Source: Moritella yayanosii
Lineage (GTDB): Bacteria > Pseudomonadota > Gammaproteobacteria > Enterobacterales > Moritellaceae
DNA: 64,000 nt
Direction of reading: 5' to 3'
Assembly: GCF_900465055.1 (NCBI RefSeq)
Contig: NZ_LS483250.1
Location: forward strand, 62,001 to 126,000
The notes under the pieces were generated by a model that was not told the origin of the DNA, searched no databases, and saw only the letters and a program-made list of their open reading frames with translations. Both the position numbers and the translations under genes were made by a program. Of this stretch, positions 977 to 9,299 are shown in pieces (the first letter of the stretch is position 1; each line of letters begins with the position of its first letter).

Positions 977-3379
977 TTAGGTATTTGAGGCGGCGTTGTG
1001 ATGGTCTTTTCTGAGATTGGTTAATCGGTGTTGGGTAATGCCAAACACCGAATTGTGTGCGTATTCTCCTTTATTGTTCATTGAACCCGCGATAATGTTG
1101 GTGAGTAACTGAATAGCGTCAGTGACATGGTCAATTGCCCATATATGGAATAAACCTTGCTCAACGGCCTCAATAACATCGTTTCGTAGCATGAGATTAT
1201 GTACATTAGTGCGCGGAATTATCACCCCTTGTGTTGATAATTGTGTAATCGATGAACAAACATCAAAAAAACCTTCAATCTTTTCATTTACCCCGCCGAT
1301 GGGTTGGGCATGACCAAATTGATCCATGGACCCGGTGATGGCGATATCTTGACGTAACGGTACTTGCGAAAATGCAGAAATAATAGCACAGCATTCGGCA
1401 AGCGAAGCGCTGTCACCATCGACTTGACCGTAAGATTGTTCGAACGTCAAACGTGTCGTGAGTGGGATCGTGACAGTTTGGCCAAATACCGATGCAATAT
1501 AAGCGGATAGGATCATCACGCCTTTGGAATGGAGGTTACCACCAAGCTTCACTTTACGTTCAATATCAAAAATTTCCCCTTCGCCAAAGGAGGCTGTTGC
1601 GGTGATACGCCCTGGGATACCAAATTCGCTGTCTGATGTTGCAATCACGGAAAGTGCATTAATTTGTCCTATCACACTACCCTTAATATCAATGAGAGTG
1701 GCACCATTGATAAAGCTTTGCAGTAGATAGTCTTGTAATCTACCGGCTCGTTGCTGTTTGTTTGTCAGCGCTTGTTCAACATGGTGATGACGTATAAGCG
1801 TGGCATTTGCAAGACGTGCACAATAATTACTTTCACGTAATAAGTTGGCGATATCAAGTGAATGCAAAGAGAGCTTATCTTGATCTTCAGCTTGGCGTGA
1901 GCTGTACTCGATGATCCGACTCATGGCTTTACGATCGCAATGTAGCATATTGTTATCGTGTACGATACTCGAAATGAATTGTGCGTAGTGTGCTTCTGCA
2001 ATGTCTGTTCTGGGCATGACATCTTCAAAATCAGCGGTAACCCGAAATAATTCTCTGAACTCAGGATCATATTGTTGCAGCAGTTGATACGTCTGATAAT
2101 CACCAAAGAGAATGATCTTAACGGAGAGTGGTATTGGTTCGGGGTCTAACGAAATGGTACCGGATAAACTGACCTCGCGTTCCAATGAACTTAAGTTTAA
2201 TTTGTTGGCGCGCAAGGCGCGTTTCAAGCCATCCCAAACATAAGGTCGCTCTAGTACTTTGACCGCATCAATCATCAACACCCCGCCATTAGCACGGTGT
2301 AAACTACCAGCTCTGATCAAAGAGGCATCGGTAAACACGGTACCTTTGAAGGTTGCACTTTCGATATAACCAAAAATAGTATGGTAATTAGGGCTGTCCT
2401 CGACCACGATAGGGAAGGAGTTGGTTTCTTGACAAACGAGCACGTTAATTTGATAGCGGCGGGGCATTTTTTTATCTAACGCGGCATAAGCCAAAGAGAT
2501 ATCATCCTCACTGCCTTCAACAAAGATCTCAAGATTGTCTAATATGTCTTTATTCATCGCGATGAGATGCGATTTTACCTCGGCTAAATGATTGTACTTT
2601 TTTTTCAATGGCGTGGTGCAATGTATCAATACGTCCTGTGCGATTTGTTCGTCAAGCTTTTGGATCTTATCGGAGAACTTTTCTTCTAAAATAGTTAATT
2701 GACGGATAATGTCACGTAGCTGTATTTCTAATTCTGCAATTTTAGTTTCAAATCGTTTCTTTTTACTGTCACTTAATGCTTCAAAATCGTTTTCAGAGTA
2801 GGCTTCGTTTTTATCGTTCATGGCGACAAGCTGGTAATCGCCTTGTGCCGTTAATGTTAAGCTAATACTGTGCTGTCGGGCTGACTGGGTCAGATCTTGT
2901 AAAATAGCTTCTTGTTTGCTTTCTAATCGATTTTTTAGTTTCTCAGAGCGAGCGAAGTAGATCTCGTTATCAAAGGCCATCGGTAAAGCTTTGACTAAAC
3001 GATGGATAAGATTATCGATATCTTTTTTAAATTGATGGGCAGAGCCCGCTGGCAATTTTAATACTTTTGGATGACGAGCTTCATCAAAATTAACCGTATA
3101 ACACCAGTCAAAAATAGTATGATTATTACTGCTCGGTTCGTGTCGGTTAAGATAGCGTAATATCATCGTACGCTTGCCCAGACCGTTGTGACCGAGCGCG
3201 TAGATGTTATAACCTTTTTCTTTTATCGACATGGCGAATTCGACCGCTTGTTGTGCCCGGTCTTGGCCGATGATTTGATCGAGTGGCTGTAGATGTTTGG
3301 TTGATTTACAGTCGGCAGCAAGCTTGCTCAGTGTTGAGGTACGATACAACTGGCTACAATCTAGAGGTTTTATCGACAT
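977..3379 (-). CDS. lonH: Lon-like ATP-dependent protease of the YcbZ/LonH type
   Basis: This 800-residue protein belongs to the Lon-like family with an AAA_32-type ATPase region and a C-terminal Lon peptidase domain, a presumed cytoplasmic quality-control protease. A P-loop (GHNGLGKRT, residues 63-71) is present. The Walker B region reads GGVLMIDAVKVL without a clear DE pair, as in other degenerate YcbZ-type ATPases. A coiled-coil segment fills about residues 140-290. The Ser-Lys dyad is visible as S657 (DGDSASLAE) and K700 (GGVNEKIEGFF). The spacing of 43 matches E. coli Lon S679/K722. It is longer than E. coli YcbZ (about 586 residues) and closer to Vibrio-type homologs. It is transcribed alone, divergent from the exonuclease gene. 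Confidence 0.87.
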   Translation of the reverse strand: MSIKPLDCSQLYRTSTLSKLAADCKSTKHLQPLDQIIGQDRAQQAVEFAMSIKEKGYNIYALGHNGLGKRTMILRYLNRHEPSSNNHTIFDWCYTVNFDEARHPKVLKLPAGSAHQFKKDIDNLIHRLVKALPMAFDNEIYFARSEKLKNRLESKQEAILQDLTQSARQHSISLTLTAQGDYQLVAMNDKNEAYSENDFEALSDSKKKRFETKIAELEIQLRDIIRQLTILEEKFSDKIQKLDEQIAQDVLIHCTTPLKKKYNHLAEVKSHLIAMNKDILDNLEIFVEGSEDDISLAYAALDKKMPRRYQINVLVCQETNSFPIVVEDSPNYHTIFGYIESATFKGTVFTDASLIRAGSLHRANGGVLMIDAVKVLERPYVWDGLKRALRANKLNLSSLEREVSLSGTISLDPEPIPLSVKIILFGDYQTYQLLQQYDPEFRELFRVTADFEDVMPRTDIAEAHYAQFISSIVHDNNMLHCDRKAMSRIIEYSSRQAEDQDKLSLHSLDIANLLRESNYCARLANATLIRHHHVEQALTNKQQRAGRLQDYLLQSFINGATLIDIKGSVIGQINALSVIATSDSEFGIPGRITATASFGEGEIFDIERKVKLGGNLHSKGVMILSAYIASVFGQTVTIPLTTRLTFEQSYGQVDGDSASLAECCAIISAFSQVPLRQDIAITGSMDQFGHAQPIGGVNEKIEGFFDVCSSITQLSTQGVIIPRTNVHNLMLRNDVIEAVEQGLFHIWAIDHVTDAIQLLTNIIAGSMNNKGEYAHNSVFGITQHRLTNLRKDHHNAASNT

Positions 3380-3495
3380 ACAGTTCCCTCTTATAAAACA
3401 GCTATACCCCTAGTGTAGACATAGATCGCTTGTGTGAGCATACTGTTTTATACTTCACGGCTAGCTTATAAGCGACCAAAAGAGAGAGAATAGGA

Positions 3496-4116
3496 ATGAT
3501 AGTGAACGCTGACACCCTGATTATATTGGATTTCGAGACAACTGGGTTATCTCCCGATATGGGCGATCGTGCGATTGAGATCGGTGCGGTAAAAATTGAA
3601 GATGGTGAGATCACAGGGCGCTTTCAAGAACTCATGTACCCTGGTCGTCGGGTGAGCAGTTTTATTGCCGATTACACCAGTATAACTAATGATATGTTAG
3701 TCGACGCCGCACCTTGTGAAGAGGTGATGCATCGTTTTGCCGATTTTATCCAAGGTTATAATTTAGTGGCGCATAATGCCTCATTTGATAAGCGTTTTTT
3801 AGATGCTGAATTGACGCGTATTGGTCGCGGCTATGACGGTGAGTTTAGCTGTTCACTGCTGGTGGCAAGACGTATTTTTCAAGATGCACCGAGCCATAAA
3901 TTGGGTGAGTTGATTAAATATGCCAATATCCCGTCGGGTGGTGGTTTTCACCGCGCGTTATTTGATTCGGAAATGACGACTAAACTCTGGTTGGTGATGC
4001 TAGATGAAATAAAATCACGCTATAGCCTAGCCCACATTCCTTTTAAGTTGGTACAAAAGTTGGCTAAAACACCAAAAAAATCAGTGGATAATTTTTTACG
4101 ACGTTATGCTAATTAG
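3496..4116 (+). CDS. DnaQ-family 3'-5' exonuclease (DEDDh)
   Basis: This 206-residue protein has the three exonuclease motifs of the DnaQ/pol III epsilon family: ExoI with D12 and E14 (LDFETTGL), ExoII with D98 (HNASFDKRFL), and ExoIII with H152 and D157 (HRALFDSEM). It should trim single-stranded DNA or RNA 3' ends using two metal ions. It lacks the C-terminal polymerase-binding tail of true DnaQ, so it is more likely a stand-alone proofreading-type or repair nuclease than the replicative epsilon subunit. The ATG at 3496 is preceded by an AGAGAGAATAGGA ribosome-binding region. Whether it is cotranscribed with the following lipoprotein gene (144-base gap) is unclear. Confidence 0.87.
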   Translation: MIVNADTLIILDFETTGLSPDMGDRAIEIGAVKIEDGEITGRFQELMYPGRRVSSFIADYTSITNDMLVDAAPCEEVMHRFADFIQGYNLVAHNASFDKRFLDAELTRIGRGYDGEFSCSLLVARRIFQDAPSHKLGELIKYANIPSGGGFHRALFDSEMTTKLWLVMLDEIKSRYSLAHIPFKLVQKLAKTPKKSVDNFLRRYAN

Positions 4117-4260
4117 CACGCTATAACCAATTGATTTTTTGATGCTTAGAACGTACAGTAACAAGGTATTAGAAAGCCAGAACGCGATGTGTAAATCAGT
4201 ACTCGCAGAACGTCATGGTGTGATTTTATTAGAGTCGGTAGGCAAGATAGGTGACCATTT

Positions 4261-5232
4261 ATGTCAATGATTAAACCATGGAAGTTAATAAGTCTGTTAT
4301 TTATTTTACAGCTATTAGCTGGCTGTGAATCAAAACTTGAACAAACGCAAATGACAATTAACCAGCAAGTTGCTAGTACTGCACAGTCGCTTACTCGACT
4401 TGGGTCGGCAATTGAAACGGGTGCAGTGCGTAATGCAAGATTGTTATCTGAATATGCGCAAGTTTTAAAACAACAAAAACCAGAACTCACTCGTATCGCC
4501 AATTTGATCGCTGAAGATGCCACGCGACAGGGGCCTTTATATCAAAATTTGGCGATGCGATTAAATGATGTTAAAGCGGAAACGGTGACGTTAGACAATG
4601 CGGGCTTATTGCTTGATGAATTGACACGTATTAAGGAAGCGTCTAAACACAGCTTATTTAATGATGCGTTAACCGATCCGATTAATGTGTTGGCGGATAT
4701 GTCCGATGGGCAACTTGCTCGTGTTGGTGCTATTAGTCAGCAGGCAGAACAAAATGGTGGTGGAGCTGATTACGGTGCTGGTAGTCAGATGGTCGGTAAC
4801 CCGAATTACGGTAACTGGCAAAGCGGCAGTAGCGGTACCAGTTTCTGGCAGTGGTACGGTATGTATCGTATGTTGGGTGATTTAACGGGACGTGTTGGCT
4901 ATTCAAATTGGAGCCAAAATCGTCGTTATAGTTACTACAATGACTATGGGCGTTCACGTTATACCAGCCCTAAGCAAAGTGTTCAGCAAGCTGCCGTTGA
5001 AACTAAAACGCGTAAATCATTTCAGCGTAAAGGCCAGACATTTAGCTCTCCTTATGCGAAAAAACGTTCAGGCGCTGCTGGCTTGAGTCGTTCTAGTTAT
5101 ACTCCAACAAAGACGGTGAGTAGCTATTCTAAACCGAAAAAGTCGTTCACTAGCAGTAAAGCGACCAGTAATACGGGATCATTTCGTAATAGTGGCAGCC
5201 GTACCTCACGTGGTGTTCGTCGCGGTAAATAG
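4261..5232 (+). CDS. Lipoprotein with Ser/Arg/Tyr-rich basic tail, in the polyamine-like module
   Basis: The 323-residue product begins with a signal peptide ending in a clear lipobox (LLAGC, Cys at about residue 22), so it should be lipid-anchored in the envelope. Residues 25-160 look helical. From about residue 165 it becomes low complexity, rich in G, S, N, Y and W, then strongly basic and Ser/Thr-rich to the C-terminus (ending SRGVRRGK). I do not recognise a named domain. Its position just upstream of the DUF350, aminopropyltransferase and SpeD genes, on the same strand, suggests it belongs to their module. AGGTGACC lies about 6 bases before the ATG at 4261. A second in-frame ATG at 4267 is possible. 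Confidence 0.75.
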   Translation: MSMIKPWKLISLLFILQLLAGCESKLEQTQMTINQQVASTAQSLTRLGSAIETGAVRNARLLSEYAQVLKQQKPELTRIANLIAEDATRQGPLYQNLAMRLNDVKAETVTLDNAGLLLDELTRIKEASKHSLFNDALTDPINVLADMSDGQLARVGAISQQAEQNGGGADYGAGSQMVGNPNYGNWQSGSSGTSFWQWYGMYRMLGDLTGRVGYSNWSQNRRYSYYNDYGRSRYTSPKQSVQQAAVETKTRKSFQRKGQTFSSPYAKKRSGAAGLSRSSYTPTKTVSSYSKPKKSFTSSKATSNTGSFRNSGSRTSRGVRRGK

Positions 5233-5252
5233 ACAGTCTTGAGCGAATAGCG

Positions 5253-5298
5253 GCCTTGAACAAATAGATAGAACAGCCTTGAGCAAACAGATAGAACA
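5253..5298 (+). repeat. Two tandem 23-bp repeats in an intergenic gap
   Basis: Two adjacent 23-bp units (5253-5275 and 5276-5298) each begin GCCTTGA and end AGATAGAACA. They differ at two positions. A weaker third copy (around 5235-5252) precedes them. They lie between the lipoprotein stop and the ribosome-binding site of the DUF350 gene. No function is evident. Confidence 0.75.
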
Positions 5299-5315
5299 AG
5301 TTATGGAGATTGAGT

Positions 5316-6206
5316 ATGTACGAGTTTGATGGATTGACGATGTGGACGACACAAGCACTGATTATTGATTTTATTATCATCATTGCGTTATTTGTTAGTT
5401 TAAAAATGATCAAAGGCTGGGTTTCAAATTTACATGCCAATGATGAAATTGCCAAGCGTGATAATTTTGCTTTTGGTATTAGTTTTGCCGCAGGATTAGC
5501 CGGTCTGGCAATTGTATTAACTGGCGTCACCAGTGGTGATTTTGCTGATTCATTATTTGAAGAAGCAACACAAATGGCAGGGTATGGCTTATTAGCGATT
5601 GCGTTAATTAAAGCCGGTCATTTTTTCCAAGATAAGGTGGCATTACAAAAAGTCAGTCTGCACGATGAAATCGTAAAAGGTAATGTAACCGCCGCGTTTG
5701 TTGAGTTTGGTCATATTGTCACGGTTGCGATCGTGGTGCGTTCAGCGTTGATCTGGGTATTAACTGAAGGTTGGCATGGCTTACCTGTGGTGATTGCCGC
5801 GTTTGTTGTGGCTAATATCATTATGCTACTGGTGAGTAAGTATCGCGTACATTTATTTAAACGCACAGGAGACTGCTTACAACAACTTATTTTGGACGAT
5901 AACTTGGCTGTTGGTATTCGTTATGCTGGGTTTTTAATTGGTTCGGGTTTAGCTATTACTGCGGCAACCGGTCTGGCACCGTATGCTGCTGATAATATCA
6001 CCCAGAGTCTGATGTACTGGGCATTCTCAGCGATTATCAGTGTGGTTATTTTTGCTGTTTTACAATTAATCACCATTAAAGTGATTTTATCCGGTGTTGA
6101 TATTGCTGATGAAGTCATTCGTCAGAAGAACATTGGTGTTGCGGTTATTTCGGCAGCGGTATCGTTTTCAATTGGTTTAACAATGGCGACGTTACTCGGT
6201 AGCTAA
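5316..6206 (+). CDS. Double DUF350 integral membrane protein
   Basis: The protein is almost entirely hydrophobic, with about eight predicted membrane segments arranged as two similar halves. Each half resembles a DUF350 (YjfL-type) domain; the second begins near the segment LAVGIRYAGFLIG. DUF350 proteins occur in gene clusters with AdoMet decarboxylase, spermidine-synthase-like enzymes and PspA-type proteins, as in the E. coli yjf operon, and the same company is seen here. The biochemical role of the family is not known to me. An in-frame TTG at 5310 is possible, but GGAG at 5305-5308 sits 7 bases before the ATG at 5316, so I chose the ATG (296 residues). Confidence 0.84.
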   Translation: MYEFDGLTMWTTQALIIDFIIIIALFVSLKMIKGWVSNLHANDEIAKRDNFAFGISFAAGLAGLAIVLTGVTSGDFADSLFEEATQMAGYGLLAIALIKAGHFFQDKVALQKVSLHDEIVKGNVTAAFVEFGHIVTVAIVVRSALIWVLTEGWHGLPVVIAAFVVANIIMLLVSKYRVHLFKRTGDCLQQLILDDNLAVGIRYAGFLIGSGLAITAATGLAPYAADNITQSLMYWAFSAIISVVIFAVLQLITIKVILSGVDIADEVIRQKNIGVAVISAAVSFSIGLTMATLLGS

Positions 6207-6375
6207 TTCGCTATTGCGGCGATAATTTTCTAACCATAGTTATTTAAGCATGGTCATTTTAGAATAGTCATAGCTCAGACTCGATACCGATTGGCAGTAA
6301 TAACAATGCTGACGTGTTATTGGGTCTGGGTTTTGTCATTCCTGAACACTCTATCTCAATACAGTAAGGCTCCGT

Positions 6376-8124
6376 GTGGAACACTCAGTTGTAAATAGTG
6401 ATAATGAAGTAAAACAAGCACAGCAGCGTAAACGGTCATTATTGTTTCACGATGCGTTATTAATCTCGGTCATGATCATACTTGCTGGTTGTGGTTTGAT
6501 CTATGAATACTTGCTTTCGCATTATGCAGGCAGGGTGTTAGGCTCGGTCGAAAGTGCGATTTATGCGATGATCGGTACCATGATTGTGGCAATGGGTATC
6601 GGCGCGTTTATGGCGCGTTGGTTTAAAGATGCGTTTACCGCATTCGCTTGGTTAGAAGCCTTGATCGCCTTAATTGGTATGAGCTGTATTTTGATTATTG
6701 CAGCGATAATCGCCGTGAGTTATAGTTTGCCACAGTTATTATCGGCGACGTTCAACTTACCTAGTAATGTGGTGCTCGATGGTTATTTACCGCAACAGTT
6801 AGAAAAAATCGCTAAATTCATGCCCTATGTGTTCGGTTTAATTCTCGGTATTTTGATTGGTATGGAGATCCCACTGATCGCTCGAGTGCGTCAGCAAGTA
6901 TACGGTCGTTTTTTAGAAAATAACGCCGGTACTATCTATGGTGCAGACTATATTGGCGCTGGTATTGGTGCCGCGATTTGGGTTTCTATCATGCTGTCGT
7001 TGCCCATTATGGAAGCGGCGGCCTGGACGGCATTATTCAATGTTATCGCGGGCCTGGCATTCTTGTGGCGTTATCAAAATAAGATCCGTTGGGCGAAATT
7101 ATTATTCCTTTGTCACTTGTTATTAATTGTATTGTTCTCGGTTATTTTAACCTTAGGCACAGGCTGGTTAGTGCAATTAAGCAGTGTATTATACAAAGAT
7201 AAAGTGATCTATTCACAATCGACAAAATATCAGCACGTGGTGGTGACTGAGCGTTATTTGAAAAATAAAGCCGAACCAGTAACAGACTTGTTTATTAATG
7301 GTCATTTACAATTTTCCAGTGTCGATGAGCAGCTATATCACGACTTATTAGTGTATCCGGCAATGCTGGCGTCTAATCGTCATGATAAGGTGTTGATCAT
7401 TGGTGGTGGAGATGGATTAGCACTGCGTAATGTACTGCGCTGGCCAGTGAAAACGGTGACTTTAGTGGATCTCGATGCGGAACTATTAGCACTATTTGGT
7501 GCCAATACAGTAGATTACGCAGCACCTGAAATGATCAAACAACGTATGTTGCGATTAAATGAAGCGTCATTACAAGATCCACGGTTAACCTTGTTTGCTA
7601 CCGATGCATTTTTACAGGTAGAAAAACTACTCGATGAAGGGGCTAAATTTGATACCATAATTATTGATTTACCCGATCCGAATCACCCCGATTTGAATAA
7701 ACTCTATAGTGATTATTTTTATAATCAGGTGCGGCAATTATTAGCCGCAGACGGGGCATTAGCCATACAATCAACCTCACCTTATCATGCCCAAAAAGCA
7801 TTTTTGAGTATCGGTAAAACGGTGAAAGAAGCGGGGTTTTTACACGTTGAACAGTACCAACGTAATATCCCGTCATTTGGTCAATGGGGCTGGACGATAG
7901 CGACAACACGTGGCAAATCGGCAAGCCGACGTATAAAGGATGTCGATACTTTACCTGTGCCATCGAACTGGTTAAACAAAGAATTTTTATTAGCGTCGTT
8001 TGTTTTCCCCGGTAATTTTTATGACCGTATAGACACGATTGAGATTAATCGATTAGGCTCTGGGGTATTGTACGATTATAACCGTGAAGCGTGGCAAACA
8101 GAGTCTGAGCTGTATAAGAATTAG
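6376..8124 (+). CDS. Membrane-fused spermidine-synthase-like aminopropyltransferase
   Basis: This 582-residue protein fuses about seven N-terminal membrane segments (residues 25-260) to a C-terminal aminopropyltransferase domain. The catalytic part shows the nucleotide-binding loop IIGGGDG (about residues 341-347), an acidic end of beta-2 (LVDLD), and the IIIDLPDP motif with D431 and D434, corresponding to the catalytic Asp region of SpeE. The substrate-side motif DEQLYHDLLVYP also matches SpeE. It should transfer an aminopropyl group from decarboxylated AdoMet, made by the SpeD encoded next, to an amine acceptor at the membrane. The acceptor is unknown. The start is a GTG with AAGG six bases upstream. 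Confidence 0.85.
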   Translation: MEHSVVNSDNEVKQAQQRKRSLLFHDALLISVMIILAGCGLIYEYLLSHYAGRVLGSVESAIYAMIGTMIVAMGIGAFMARWFKDAFTAFAWLEALIALIGMSCILIIAAIIAVSYSLPQLLSATFNLPSNVVLDGYLPQQLEKIAKFMPYVFGLILGILIGMEIPLIARVRQQVYGRFLENNAGTIYGADYIGAGIGAAIWVSIMLSLPIMEAAAWTALFNVIAGLAFLWRYQNKIRWAKLLFLCHLLLIVLFSVILTLGTGWLVQLSSVLYKDKVIYSQSTKYQHVVVTERYLKNKAEPVTDLFINGHLQFSSVDEQLYHDLLVYPAMLASNRHDKVLIIGGGDGLALRNVLRWPVKTVTLVDLDAELLALFGANTVDYAAPEMIKQRMLRLNEASLQDPRLTLFATDAFLQVEKLLDEGAKFDTIIIDLPDPNHPDLNKLYSDYFYNQVRQLLAADGALAIQSTSPYHAQKAFLSIGKTVKEAGFLHVEQYQRNIPSFGQWGWTIATTRGKSASRRIKDVDTLPVPSNWLNKEFLLASFVFPGNFYDRIDTIEINRLGSGVLYDYNREAWQTESELYKN

Positions 8125-8193
8125 TTGCTGGGAATAATGATTAATACCCTGTAACTAGGTTATTTATTTTAATGTTAGTAAGTGAAAATAACA

Positions 8194-8505
8194 ATGGAAG
8201 CAAAAATATATAATCAACGCTGGTGGTTAAGTAGTTGCGATAGTGAAGCACTTAAACGGGTGATTTCAGCAGAGCTTAATCGCGCCGGTTTTACGATATT
8301 GAACTTCGTTGAGCATTATTTTCAGCCACAGGGTTATACCGCGTTGTGGCTGCTAGCCGAAAGCCATGCCGCGGTACATACGTTTCCTGAAGAGGGGAAA
8401 TCGTATGTCGAGTTATCCAGTTGTGCTGCTTCTTTATTAGAACATTTTGACCGTTACTTGCGTGATGCGGCGGCTAAACAGCAGTGGCAAGTAACGACGT
8501 CCTAG
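8194..8505 (+). CDS. speD: S-adenosylmethionine decarboxylase proenzyme, short class 1b type
   Basis: The enzyme makes decarboxylated AdoMet, the aminopropyl donor for spermidine-type synthases, after self-cleavage creates a pyruvoyl group. Counting from the ATG at 8194 (103 residues), the cleavage serine is S57 (AESHAAVHTF), with H62 and C77. The S-H and H-C spacings (5 and 15) equal those of the Thermotoga enzyme (S63, H68, C83). It is somewhat shorter than the usual 120-130 residues. A GTG at 8182 would add four residues; neither start has a strong ribosome-binding site. It follows the membrane aminopropyltransferase by 69 bases, and the pair is very likely functionally linked. Confidence 0.84.
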   Translation: MEAKIYNQRWWLSSCDSEALKRVISAELNRAGFTILNFVEHYFQPQGYTALWLLAESHAAVHTFPEEGKSYVELSSCAASLLEHFDRYLRDAAAKQQWQVTTS

Positions 8506-8531
8506 TTTGTATATTACATTCGTATAAAATG

Positions 8532-9299
8532 CTACGAATAGAGTAATTTCAAACTCATCGCGATAGACATGGTGACCATTAATGGTTTAATGATTTTAAC
8601 GCCTTTTGATAATACTAAACGTGAGCCAAGTGTTGCCCCTAGCGCTTGGCCAACTAACATAATGCCCCCCAATGCCCAGAGTACCTTGCCACCTAATGCG
8701 AAAAACAAGAGTGACGCGATATTCGTCGCGAAGTTAAGTACCTTGGCGTGTGCCGTTGCTTTAGCCAATCCAAACCCAGCCAATGATACGAATGCCATGG
8801 CAAAAAAACTGCCAGTGCCTGGACCAAAGAACCCATCATACAAACCAATACCGAAAGCCGCCGTTACTGCAAATAGCGTTGGTGTCAGTAGTTGATGTTT
8901 ATCTTCATCGCCAATTTGTTTGGACAACAAAAAATAACCGCCGATGGCAAGAATAAGAAAAGGTAAGATCACTTCCAGTATACTTGGGTCAATCGATTGG
9001 ATCGCAATACTACCGAGTGCTGAGCCGACGAAAGTACAGGCGATGGCCAATTTCATTTTCTTCACATCGACCATGCCTTTACGAATAAAATAAAAACTGG
9101 CAAAGAAACTACCGCCACAGGCTTGCAGTTTGTTAGTTGCCAGGGCCGTTGCAGGAGGAAGACCCACCCATAATAATGCTGGAATAGTCAGTAGACCACC
9201 ACCGCCAGCGATAGAATCAATAAAACCAGCGACCACAGCCACTAAAAATAATAGCCCAACAATTTCTGCTGATAATTGTAACGACATATCCAAACCCAT
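8532..9299 (-). CDS. yfcA: TSUP (TauE/SafE) family membrane transporter, YfcA-like
   Basis: This 255-residue protein has about eight hydrophobic segments and the glycine-rich signature AGFIDSIAGGGGLLTIPAL near residues 24-42, followed by PPATALATNKLQ, typical of YfcA-type TSUP permeases. The second half repeats a similar pattern (GLYDGFFGPGTGSFF). Family members export or import small sulfur- or carbon-containing anions, but the substrate cannot be told from sequence. An AGGAG lies about 10 bases before the ATG at 9299. It is divergent from the LysR-type gene at 9452, which may control it. Confidence 0.86.
   Translation of the reverse strand: MGLDMSLQLSAEIVGLLFLVAVVAGFIDSIAGGGGLLTIPALLWVGLPPATALATNKLQACGGSFFASFYFIRKGMVDVKKMKLAIACTFVGSALGSIAIQSIDPSILEVILPFLILAIGGYFLLSKQIGDEDKHQLLTPTLFAVTAAFGIGLYDGFFGPGTGSFFAMAFVSLAGFGLAKATAHAKVLNFATNIASLLFFALGGKVLWALGGIMLVGQALGATLGSRLVLSKGVKIIKPLMVTMSIAMSLKLLYS

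Follow-up and report, generated by a model that had tools for sequence, protein, structure and literature searches.

A split, hybrid form of the PspA-linked envelope operon in Moritella yayanosii, with a lysine-ended lipoprotein as candidate aminopropyl acceptor

The window analysed here, a stretch of 64,000 nucleotides from Moritella yayanosii (G000:C1:62001-126000 of a 4.43 Mb genome in one contig), carries four open reading frames (ORFs) for a lipoprotein (LIPO), a double DUF350 membrane protein, a spermidine-synthase-like protein with its own membrane domain (APT) and SpeD, a short S-adenosylmethionine (AdoMet) decarboxylase (AdoMetDC). The original prediction, made from the letters of this DNA, had described them as four same-strand genes, and the ORF check and Pfam assignments agree with it: all lie on the + strand in the order given. 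The Moritella operon is of a known kind, in a new form that is both split and hybrid. In Moritella a PspA-linked envelope operon has come apart, and the four genes would be its polyamine half, which has gained a SpeD of its own. The features are given below in window coordinates, except for the last, which lies elsewhere in the genome (TM, transmembrane; aa, amino acids).

4261..5232, + strand: LIPO, lipoprotein of 323 aa with lipobox Cys22; its relatives adjoin APT in 65/68 loci
4963..5229, + strand: basic Ser/Arg/Lys-rich tail of LIPO with the invariant C-terminal Lys (last codon 5227-5229), from the last-residue count and the tail charge
5316..6206, + strand: double DUF350 membrane protein of 296 aa (PF03994 twice, about eight hydrophobic segments)
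6376..8124, + strand: APT, 7-TM domain fused to a spermidine-synthase-like domain, 582 aa (PF01564, PRK03612, AlphaFold2 model)
6445..7191, + strand: seven-TM domain of APT, about residues 24-272 (hydropathy, model helices, positive-inside balance)
7201..8121, + strand: spermidine-synthase-like catalytic domain of APT, residues 276-582, predicted periplasmic (conserved residues, Cys count)
8194..8505 (alternative GTG start 8182), + strand: SpeD, short class 1b AdoMetDC with S57/H62/C77 (PF02675; identity to a phage SpeD)
G000:C1:3486732-3490060 (L081:6733-10061), - strand: locus B, the PspA half, with DUF350', DUF2170, PspA, a 230-aa protein and a 106-aa protein

Judging by its sequence, SpeD is probably a true AdoMetDC. 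Counted from the ATG at 8194 it has 103 aa, and the S57/H62/C77 positions of the original prediction are correct with this start; the GTG at 8182 would move the numbering by 4. The protein bears the marks of the class 1b enzymes, namely the pyruvoyl S57, H62 (S+5), C77 (S+20) and P65. A proline distinguishes AdoMetDC from arginine decarboxylase (PMC10407285), and is here taken to be the Pro of the HT[WF]PE motif. SpeD scored 56.6 bits against PF02675, above the Pfam cut-off, and 48.3 bits against NCBIfam TIGR03330, below its cut-off of 75.65 bits. The four solved sequences that it matched are all AdoMetDCs (best E 9.7e-8). Its best phage match was the SpeD of a Bacteroidetes phage, Croceibacter phage P2559S (54% identity over 94 aa), an enzyme that, according to PMC9992855, restored spermidine in an E. 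coli speD deletion and is a bona fide AdoMetDC. Ornithine and arginine decarboxylase were also considered for SpeD, and are disfavoured by Pro65 and by this phage relative. Its match to phrog_27309 (3.7e-35) is much stronger than those to the solved AdoMetDCs, and a phage origin is possible.

In APT, residues 318-514 match PF01564 (108.7 bits). The protein scored 605 bits against NCBIfam PRK03612 (cut-off 472) and stayed below the SpeE equivalog TIGR00417 (123.1 bits against a cut-off of 249.55). All 108 aligned APT rows keep the GGGDG motif (D346) together with Q312, D317, E318, Y321, H322, D367, D410, D431, D434 and Q465; the residues outside GGGDG presumably have catalytic roles or roles in binding decarboxylated AdoMet (dcAdoMet). 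The eight short overlapping loci L084-L091, whose genomes were counted already, two APT pieces from locus L071 and five shorter relatives were dropped before the counts, and some repeats remain among the 108 rows; the last-residue count reported below kept the two pieces and the five shorter relatives. These pieces come from Pseudoalteromonas lipolytica UCD-48B (L071:3692-5414), where APT is divided into two overlapping ORFs by a sequencing error or in a broken gene. Hydropathy analysis placed seven TM segments in the N-terminal part, and the AlphaFold2 model consists of seven long helices followed by the catalytic domain (pLDDT 80; pTM 0.58, the placement of the domain being unsure). As far as its conserved residues tell, APT is a working aminopropyltransferase.

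To relate APT to its supply of dcAdoMet, we sampled 148 genomes of the order, 42 of them with an APT at E 1e-30 or better, and looked for PF02675 and PF01536 in these 42 and in 20 of the 106 APT-negative ones. An AdoMetDC gene was present in 42/42 APT genomes (17 PF02675, 25 PF01536, 0 with both and 0 with neither) and in 4/20 APT-negative genomes (3 PF02675, 1 PF01536). Since these genomes share kinship, a Fisher test on the comparison does not give a true probability. The class of the enzyme varies between genomes inside families f6 and f16. This presence of AdoMetDC in all 42 APT genomes, in one Pfam family or the other and never both, is new here. A 2019 study by Li et al. in Biochem J reportedly found class 1b AdoMetDC, the membrane-bound spermidine synthase (SpdSyn) fusion and DUF350 together, linked both AdoMetDC classes to the fusion, and counted thousands of such bacterial fusions. 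The Moritella yayanosii genome holds a single PF02675 match, the SpeD of the window, and SpeD follows APT in 10/10 Moritella genomes, this one included. The four-gene order that the original prediction proposed to seek in other genomes thus recurs within Moritella, whereas the 32 other APT genomes have their AdoMetDC gene elsewhere; a BLAST search with the window SpeD found none in 64 non-Moritella named loci.

The co-occurrence also bears on a quite different activity, in which APT would be a methyltransferase and SpeD would belong to another pathway. Its model is the fungal N-terminal histidine methyltransferase NHMT, an endoplasmic reticulum protein combining 7 TM segments with a spermidine-synthase fold, which transfers a methyl group to the first residue of LPMOs destined for secretion (PMC10349129). 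NHMT thus resembles APT in its domain make-up and acts on secreted proteins. It differs in transferring a methyl instead of an aminopropyl group and in having Ile where spermidine synthases have the Asp/Glu of GxG(D/E)G, a position at which APT keeps its Asp (D346) in 108/108 rows; the authors' BLAST with the 7-TM domain of NHMT matched fungi only. With this aspartate kept and an AdoMetDC in every APT genome, we discarded the methyltransferase reading as very improbable.

An enzyme with the catalytic residues of spermidine synthases could also work with SpeD on a free polyamine, be it spermidine, norspermidine or something longer, whose synthesis at the membrane would protect the surface, the role proposed for Pseudomonas aeruginosa PA4773-PA4774. 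The name of PRK03612, polyamine aminopropyltransferase, agrees with this, and so do two described enzymes, the P. aeruginosa APT that is encoded next to a class 1b SpeD and was identified as a thermospermine synthase, and a Magnaporthe membrane-APT fusion reported to make spermine, a claim disputed by PMC12803844. That paper states that the bacterial fusion proteins, the only non-fungal homologues of the fungal fusion, were shown to have no part in spermidine/spermine synthesis; the acceptor of APT is therefore probably something other than free putrescine. In addition, C1:628000-640000 of the Moritella genome encodes a carboxynorspermidine synthase, a carboxynorspermidine decarboxylase and a diaminobutyrate transaminase, each above its curated cut-off, beside a diaminobutyrate-decarboxylase-like gene below cut-off (391.5 of 900 bits). 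These genes give the cell a second likely pathway to triamines. Free polyamine production also leaves the lipoprotein and its fixed end unexplained, and we consider it unlikely. The only other PF01564 match of the genome, a 262-aa protein at C1:987527, was rejected as the partner of SpeD: by eye it has neither GGGDG nor the catalytic Asp pair, and it reached 126 of 304 bits against PRK04457. Judged by PF01564, APT would be the sole visible user of the SpeD product.

The known operon is the six-to-seven-gene CesT/Tir-PspA operon of Ravi et al. 2024 (PMC11237479, e.g. AAN56744.1-AAN56747.1), which includes a 7TM-spermine-synthase fusion, a lipoprotein and DUF350. The Moritella genes share with it the lipoprotein, an 8-TM DUF350 protein and the 7-TM APT, so that the lipoprotein, which the original prediction had taken for an addition of this version, was already part of the known system. 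The remaining parts occur elsewhere in the Moritella genome: DUF2170 in the place of CesT/Tir, PspA, a 230-aa Pfam-less protein in the place of DUF4178 (PF13785 matched nothing in this genome) and, as the last gene, one for a protein of 106 aa. They form locus B, where the single PspA gene of the genome lies 3.4 Mb from the window locus by coordinate, a distance that a circular chromosome would shorten to 1.0 Mb. Hence the CesT/Tir (DUF2170)-PspA dyad is absent from the four-gene locus, as the original prediction had said of PspA, and is found with a second DUF350-family protein (G000:C1:3489173-3490027) at a distance. The window DUF350 protein itself matches PF03994 in two stretches (123.7 bits) and has about eight hydrophobic segments. 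Compared with the operon described in that paper, the Moritella form is split, has SpeD joined to the trio and a second DUF350 protein, and leaves DUF4178 unmatched.

In relatives from named genomes, LIPO, DUF350 and APT occur in the same order and on the same strand in 65/68 cases, which goes beyond chance. The three exceptions are a 4.4-kb contig from which the end of LIPO is missing (L068) and two metagenome-assembled genomes whose fetched stretch contains APT but no LIPO or DUF350 (L074 and L075). DUF2170 follows APT in 62/68, the other six being four Moritella, L074 and L075, and nearly all of the 62 have the order LIPO-DUF350-APT-DUF2170-PspA-230-aa-type-RHH-type. Among the 42 APT genomes of the sample, DUF2170 adjoins APT in 20 and is distant in 22 (10 Moritella, family f1; 8 of family f11; 4 of f12). 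The trio is intact in all 22 split genomes; since it stays together when the operon splits, LIPO is tied to APT rather than to PspA, L074 and L075 being the exceptions. Among the 14 split genomes whose PspA half was fetched, DUF350' precedes DUF2170 in 10/10 Moritella and is absent in 2 f11 and 2 f12 genomes. DUF2170 was also matched in 4/20 APT-negative genomes. In the two that were fetched (G015 = L158, G025 = L155) it lies with an RHH-type gene, and profiles found no APT, LIPO or DUF350 in 18 kb; the PspA half seems able to exist without the polyamine half. The gene nspC was above cut-off in 22/22 split and 0/20 unsplit genomes, a distribution that follows the three families and may reflect ancestry alone.

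The two halves, and with them their DUF350 proteins, differ in ancestry. The window APT is 93-98% identical to the APTs of four named Moritella genomes, 70-76% to those of Pseudoalteromonas and 48-52% to others, and its kinship rests on these identities. Window DUF350 and LIPO group with Pseudoalteromonas in both trees (support 100/100), and the DUF350 of locus B is placed across that branch, with other families. Moritella PspA does not group with that of Pseudoalteromonas and has no firm placement otherwise. This difference in grouping between LIPO and DUF350 on one side and PspA on the other again sets the Moritella operon apart from that of Ravi 2024. In the DUF350 tree Moritella is nested within Pseudoalteromonas (93/80), in the LIPO tree it is not. 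We infer, as the simplest account, that a native operon and a Pseudoalteromonas-type trio met, and that the native LIPO and APT were then lost.

LIPO is, by its signal sequence ending in LLAGC and the residues that follow, an outer-membrane-type lipoprotein: among 93 distinct mature sequences (103 rows with 10 repeats) Asp never directly follows the lipobox Cys. A second Cys is absent from 92/93 of these mature sequences. No Pfam or NCBIfam family matched it, and profiles of LIPO and DUF350 matched nothing useful among solved structures. The lipoprotein of the operon of Ravi 2024 carries the Ctha_1186 domain (PMC11237479). The LIPO tail is 77-98 residues long with a net charge of +14 to +23 (84 distinct tails), and consists of Ser (26%), Arg (11%) and Lys (11%) to a large part. 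All 93 distinct relatives end in Lys, and the window LIPO, which is not counted among them, likewise ends in RGK; in other operon proteins the commonest last residue reaches about 70% at most. Across the 103 rows this is the sole Lys column with a conservation of at least 95%. The tail is of low complexity and yet its end is fixed, which calls for a reader or a writer of that end.

We propose, with a probability of about 0.4, that SpeD and APT together attach aminopropyl groups to an acceptor in the envelope, most likely to the lysines of the LIPO tail and above all the C-terminal Lys. SpeD would yield dcAdoMet, from which the 7-TM APT would transfer the aminopropyl group onto the envelope acceptor, not onto free putrescine. 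The likeliest acceptor would be the co-encoded outer-membrane lipoprotein, and a lysine side chain so modified would carry the spermidine skeleton. We count the persistence of LIPO and DUF350 with APT in every split genome for this proposal, as it marks LIPO and APT as a unit. The PspA half, now acting in trans, probably ties the system to envelope stress.

The side of the membrane was assessed from the charge of the APT loops. With seven TM segments, loops on the N-terminal side hold on average 11.0 Lys+Arg and those opposite 2.6, a difference of the same sign in 108/108 rows. By the positive-inside rule, under which the more positively charged loops stay in the cytoplasm, this balance predicts a periplasmic location of the catalytic domain. 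No Cys occurs after APT residue 265 in 107/108 rows, and three soluble relatives have 4-5. For a periplasmic domain, dcAdoMet would need to cross via the 7-TM domain or DUF350. The corresponding full scheme, protein aminopropylation outside the cytoplasm, in which a cytosolic SpeD makes dcAdoMet, dcAdoMet passes the inner membrane and the periplasmic domain turns tail lysines, the C-terminal one first, into spermidine-like groups, would be unlikely in all its parts together.

Protein modification has a parallel in E. coli. By their RefSeq names, the genes of the yjf operon encode DUF2170, PspA, DUF2491, DUF350, DUF1190 and a peptide-spermidine ligase; neither AdoMetDC nor spermidine synthase is among them, although the original prediction had cited this operon as a cluster with both. 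The kinship with yjf-type clusters that it recognised holds: DUF350, PspA and DUF2170 are shared with Moritella, and yjf and ygiBC combine a DUF1190 protein with a Ser/Arg-rich tail and a polyamine-attaching enzyme. The two envelope proteins viewed, YjfM (L161:8388-9026) and YgiB (L162:745-1416), end in HWGG and SMGG, respectively, on tails rich in Ser and Arg, and their genes adjoin those named peptide-spermidine ligase (yjfC and ygiC). The E. coli clusters differ in that the ligase replaces AdoMetDC and APT, the tails end in GG instead of K, and no dcAdoMet step is involved. An ATP-grasp ligase, which the original prediction had described as missing from the window, was absent from the seven genes scanned (window 977-9299), the remaining genome not having been searched for one. 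With an aminopropyl group added, Lys would bear the skeleton of spermidine at its alpha carbon, and in this way APT and ligase would both leave a spermidine-like lipoprotein end. Extracytoplasmic aminopropylation would then be the counterpart of the E. coli ligase clusters: envelope lipoproteins would receive a polyamine terminus through two different chemistries, and DUF350 and PspA would be partners common to both (in E. coli, in the yjf case). Taken as analogies, fungal NHMT and the E. coli ligases point to protein modification. The make-up of the LIPO tail also recalls the silaffins of diatoms, which carry polyamines.

A lipid or lipopolysaccharide could be the acceptor instead, an aminopropylated phospholipid or lipid A lowering the negative charge of the envelope. 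Such a target would suit a catalytic domain fused to a membrane domain and a link to PspA systems, which stabilise membranes; Ravi 2024 (PMC11237479) mentions, in general terms, aminopropylation of other substrates altering membrane structure. Both precedents that we found, however, act on proteins or peptides, and the lipoprotein remains with APT in split operons. Further, we know of no lipid-modifying relative of APT, and hold a lipid acceptor to be rather unlikely. The original prediction of a lipid or envelope molecule rather than free putrescine thus probably stands as regards putrescine, with a protein at least as likely as a lipid.

Several observations weigh against aminopropylation of LIPO. 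In L074 and L075, APT occurs without LIPO, DUF350 or PspA in the fetched stretch. The APT residues that align with those of solved spermidine synthases are kept on the acceptor side as well. As for the AdoMetDC genes, SpeD adjoins a second 7-TM paralogue in 2/3 fetched loci of family f16, and 3 of 10 returned loci, two of these in APT genomes, have a class 2 AdoMetDC beside a soluble synthase, so that AdoMetDC may serve other enzymes in these genomes. For a catalytic domain in the periplasm to work, dcAdoMet would have to be present outside the cytoplasm, and to our knowledge no dcAdoMet carrier has been described. The depletion of Cys is weak evidence for the periplasm, because cytosolic PspA is also almost Cys-free and the corresponding domain of two 7-TM paralogues contains a single Cys. 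As enzymes that depend on ATP, ATP-grasp ligases should work in the cytosol, which makes the E. coli analogy weaker in the place of action. Finally, the aromatic core of LIPO is conserved equally with the tail end. C-terminal motifs often serve sorting, and the invariant Lys could mark LIPO for sorting or recognition, LIPO itself being only a structural or sensory partner. This is improbable in our judgement: the C-terminal Lys stands alone among the lysine columns in its conservation, and amines are what the enzyme family encoded beside it acts on.

New here are the prediction of a periplasm-facing catalytic domain, the basic LIPO tail ending in Lys, and the protein-modification precedents. 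Within the open-licence literature, outside which most subscription papers lie, no title or abstract start was found to propose LIPO aminopropylation or a catalytic domain in the periplasm. With a lipoprotein that ends in Lys and a catalytic domain predicted to lie outside, the target of the membrane-bound spermidine-synthase fusions becomes directly testable. If the LIPO tail were aminopropylated, this would be a new protein modification, perhaps with use of dcAdoMet outside the cytoplasm, the role of DUF350 would become open to study, and the family name polyamine aminopropyltransferase would be misleading.

Promoter and terminator scans gave no clear excess above shuffles. In the two Pseudomonadales metagenome-assembled genomes (L074, L075), APT has a different setting: its neighbour is a PF10118 hydrolase, with a cNMP-binding protein close by. 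The second 7-TM spermidine-synthase paralogue, of 514 aa, was seen in two f16 genomes (L156:8349-9893, 627 bits against PRK03612 in L156; L159:6638-8182), where a class 1b SpeD gene adjoins it on the opposite strand.

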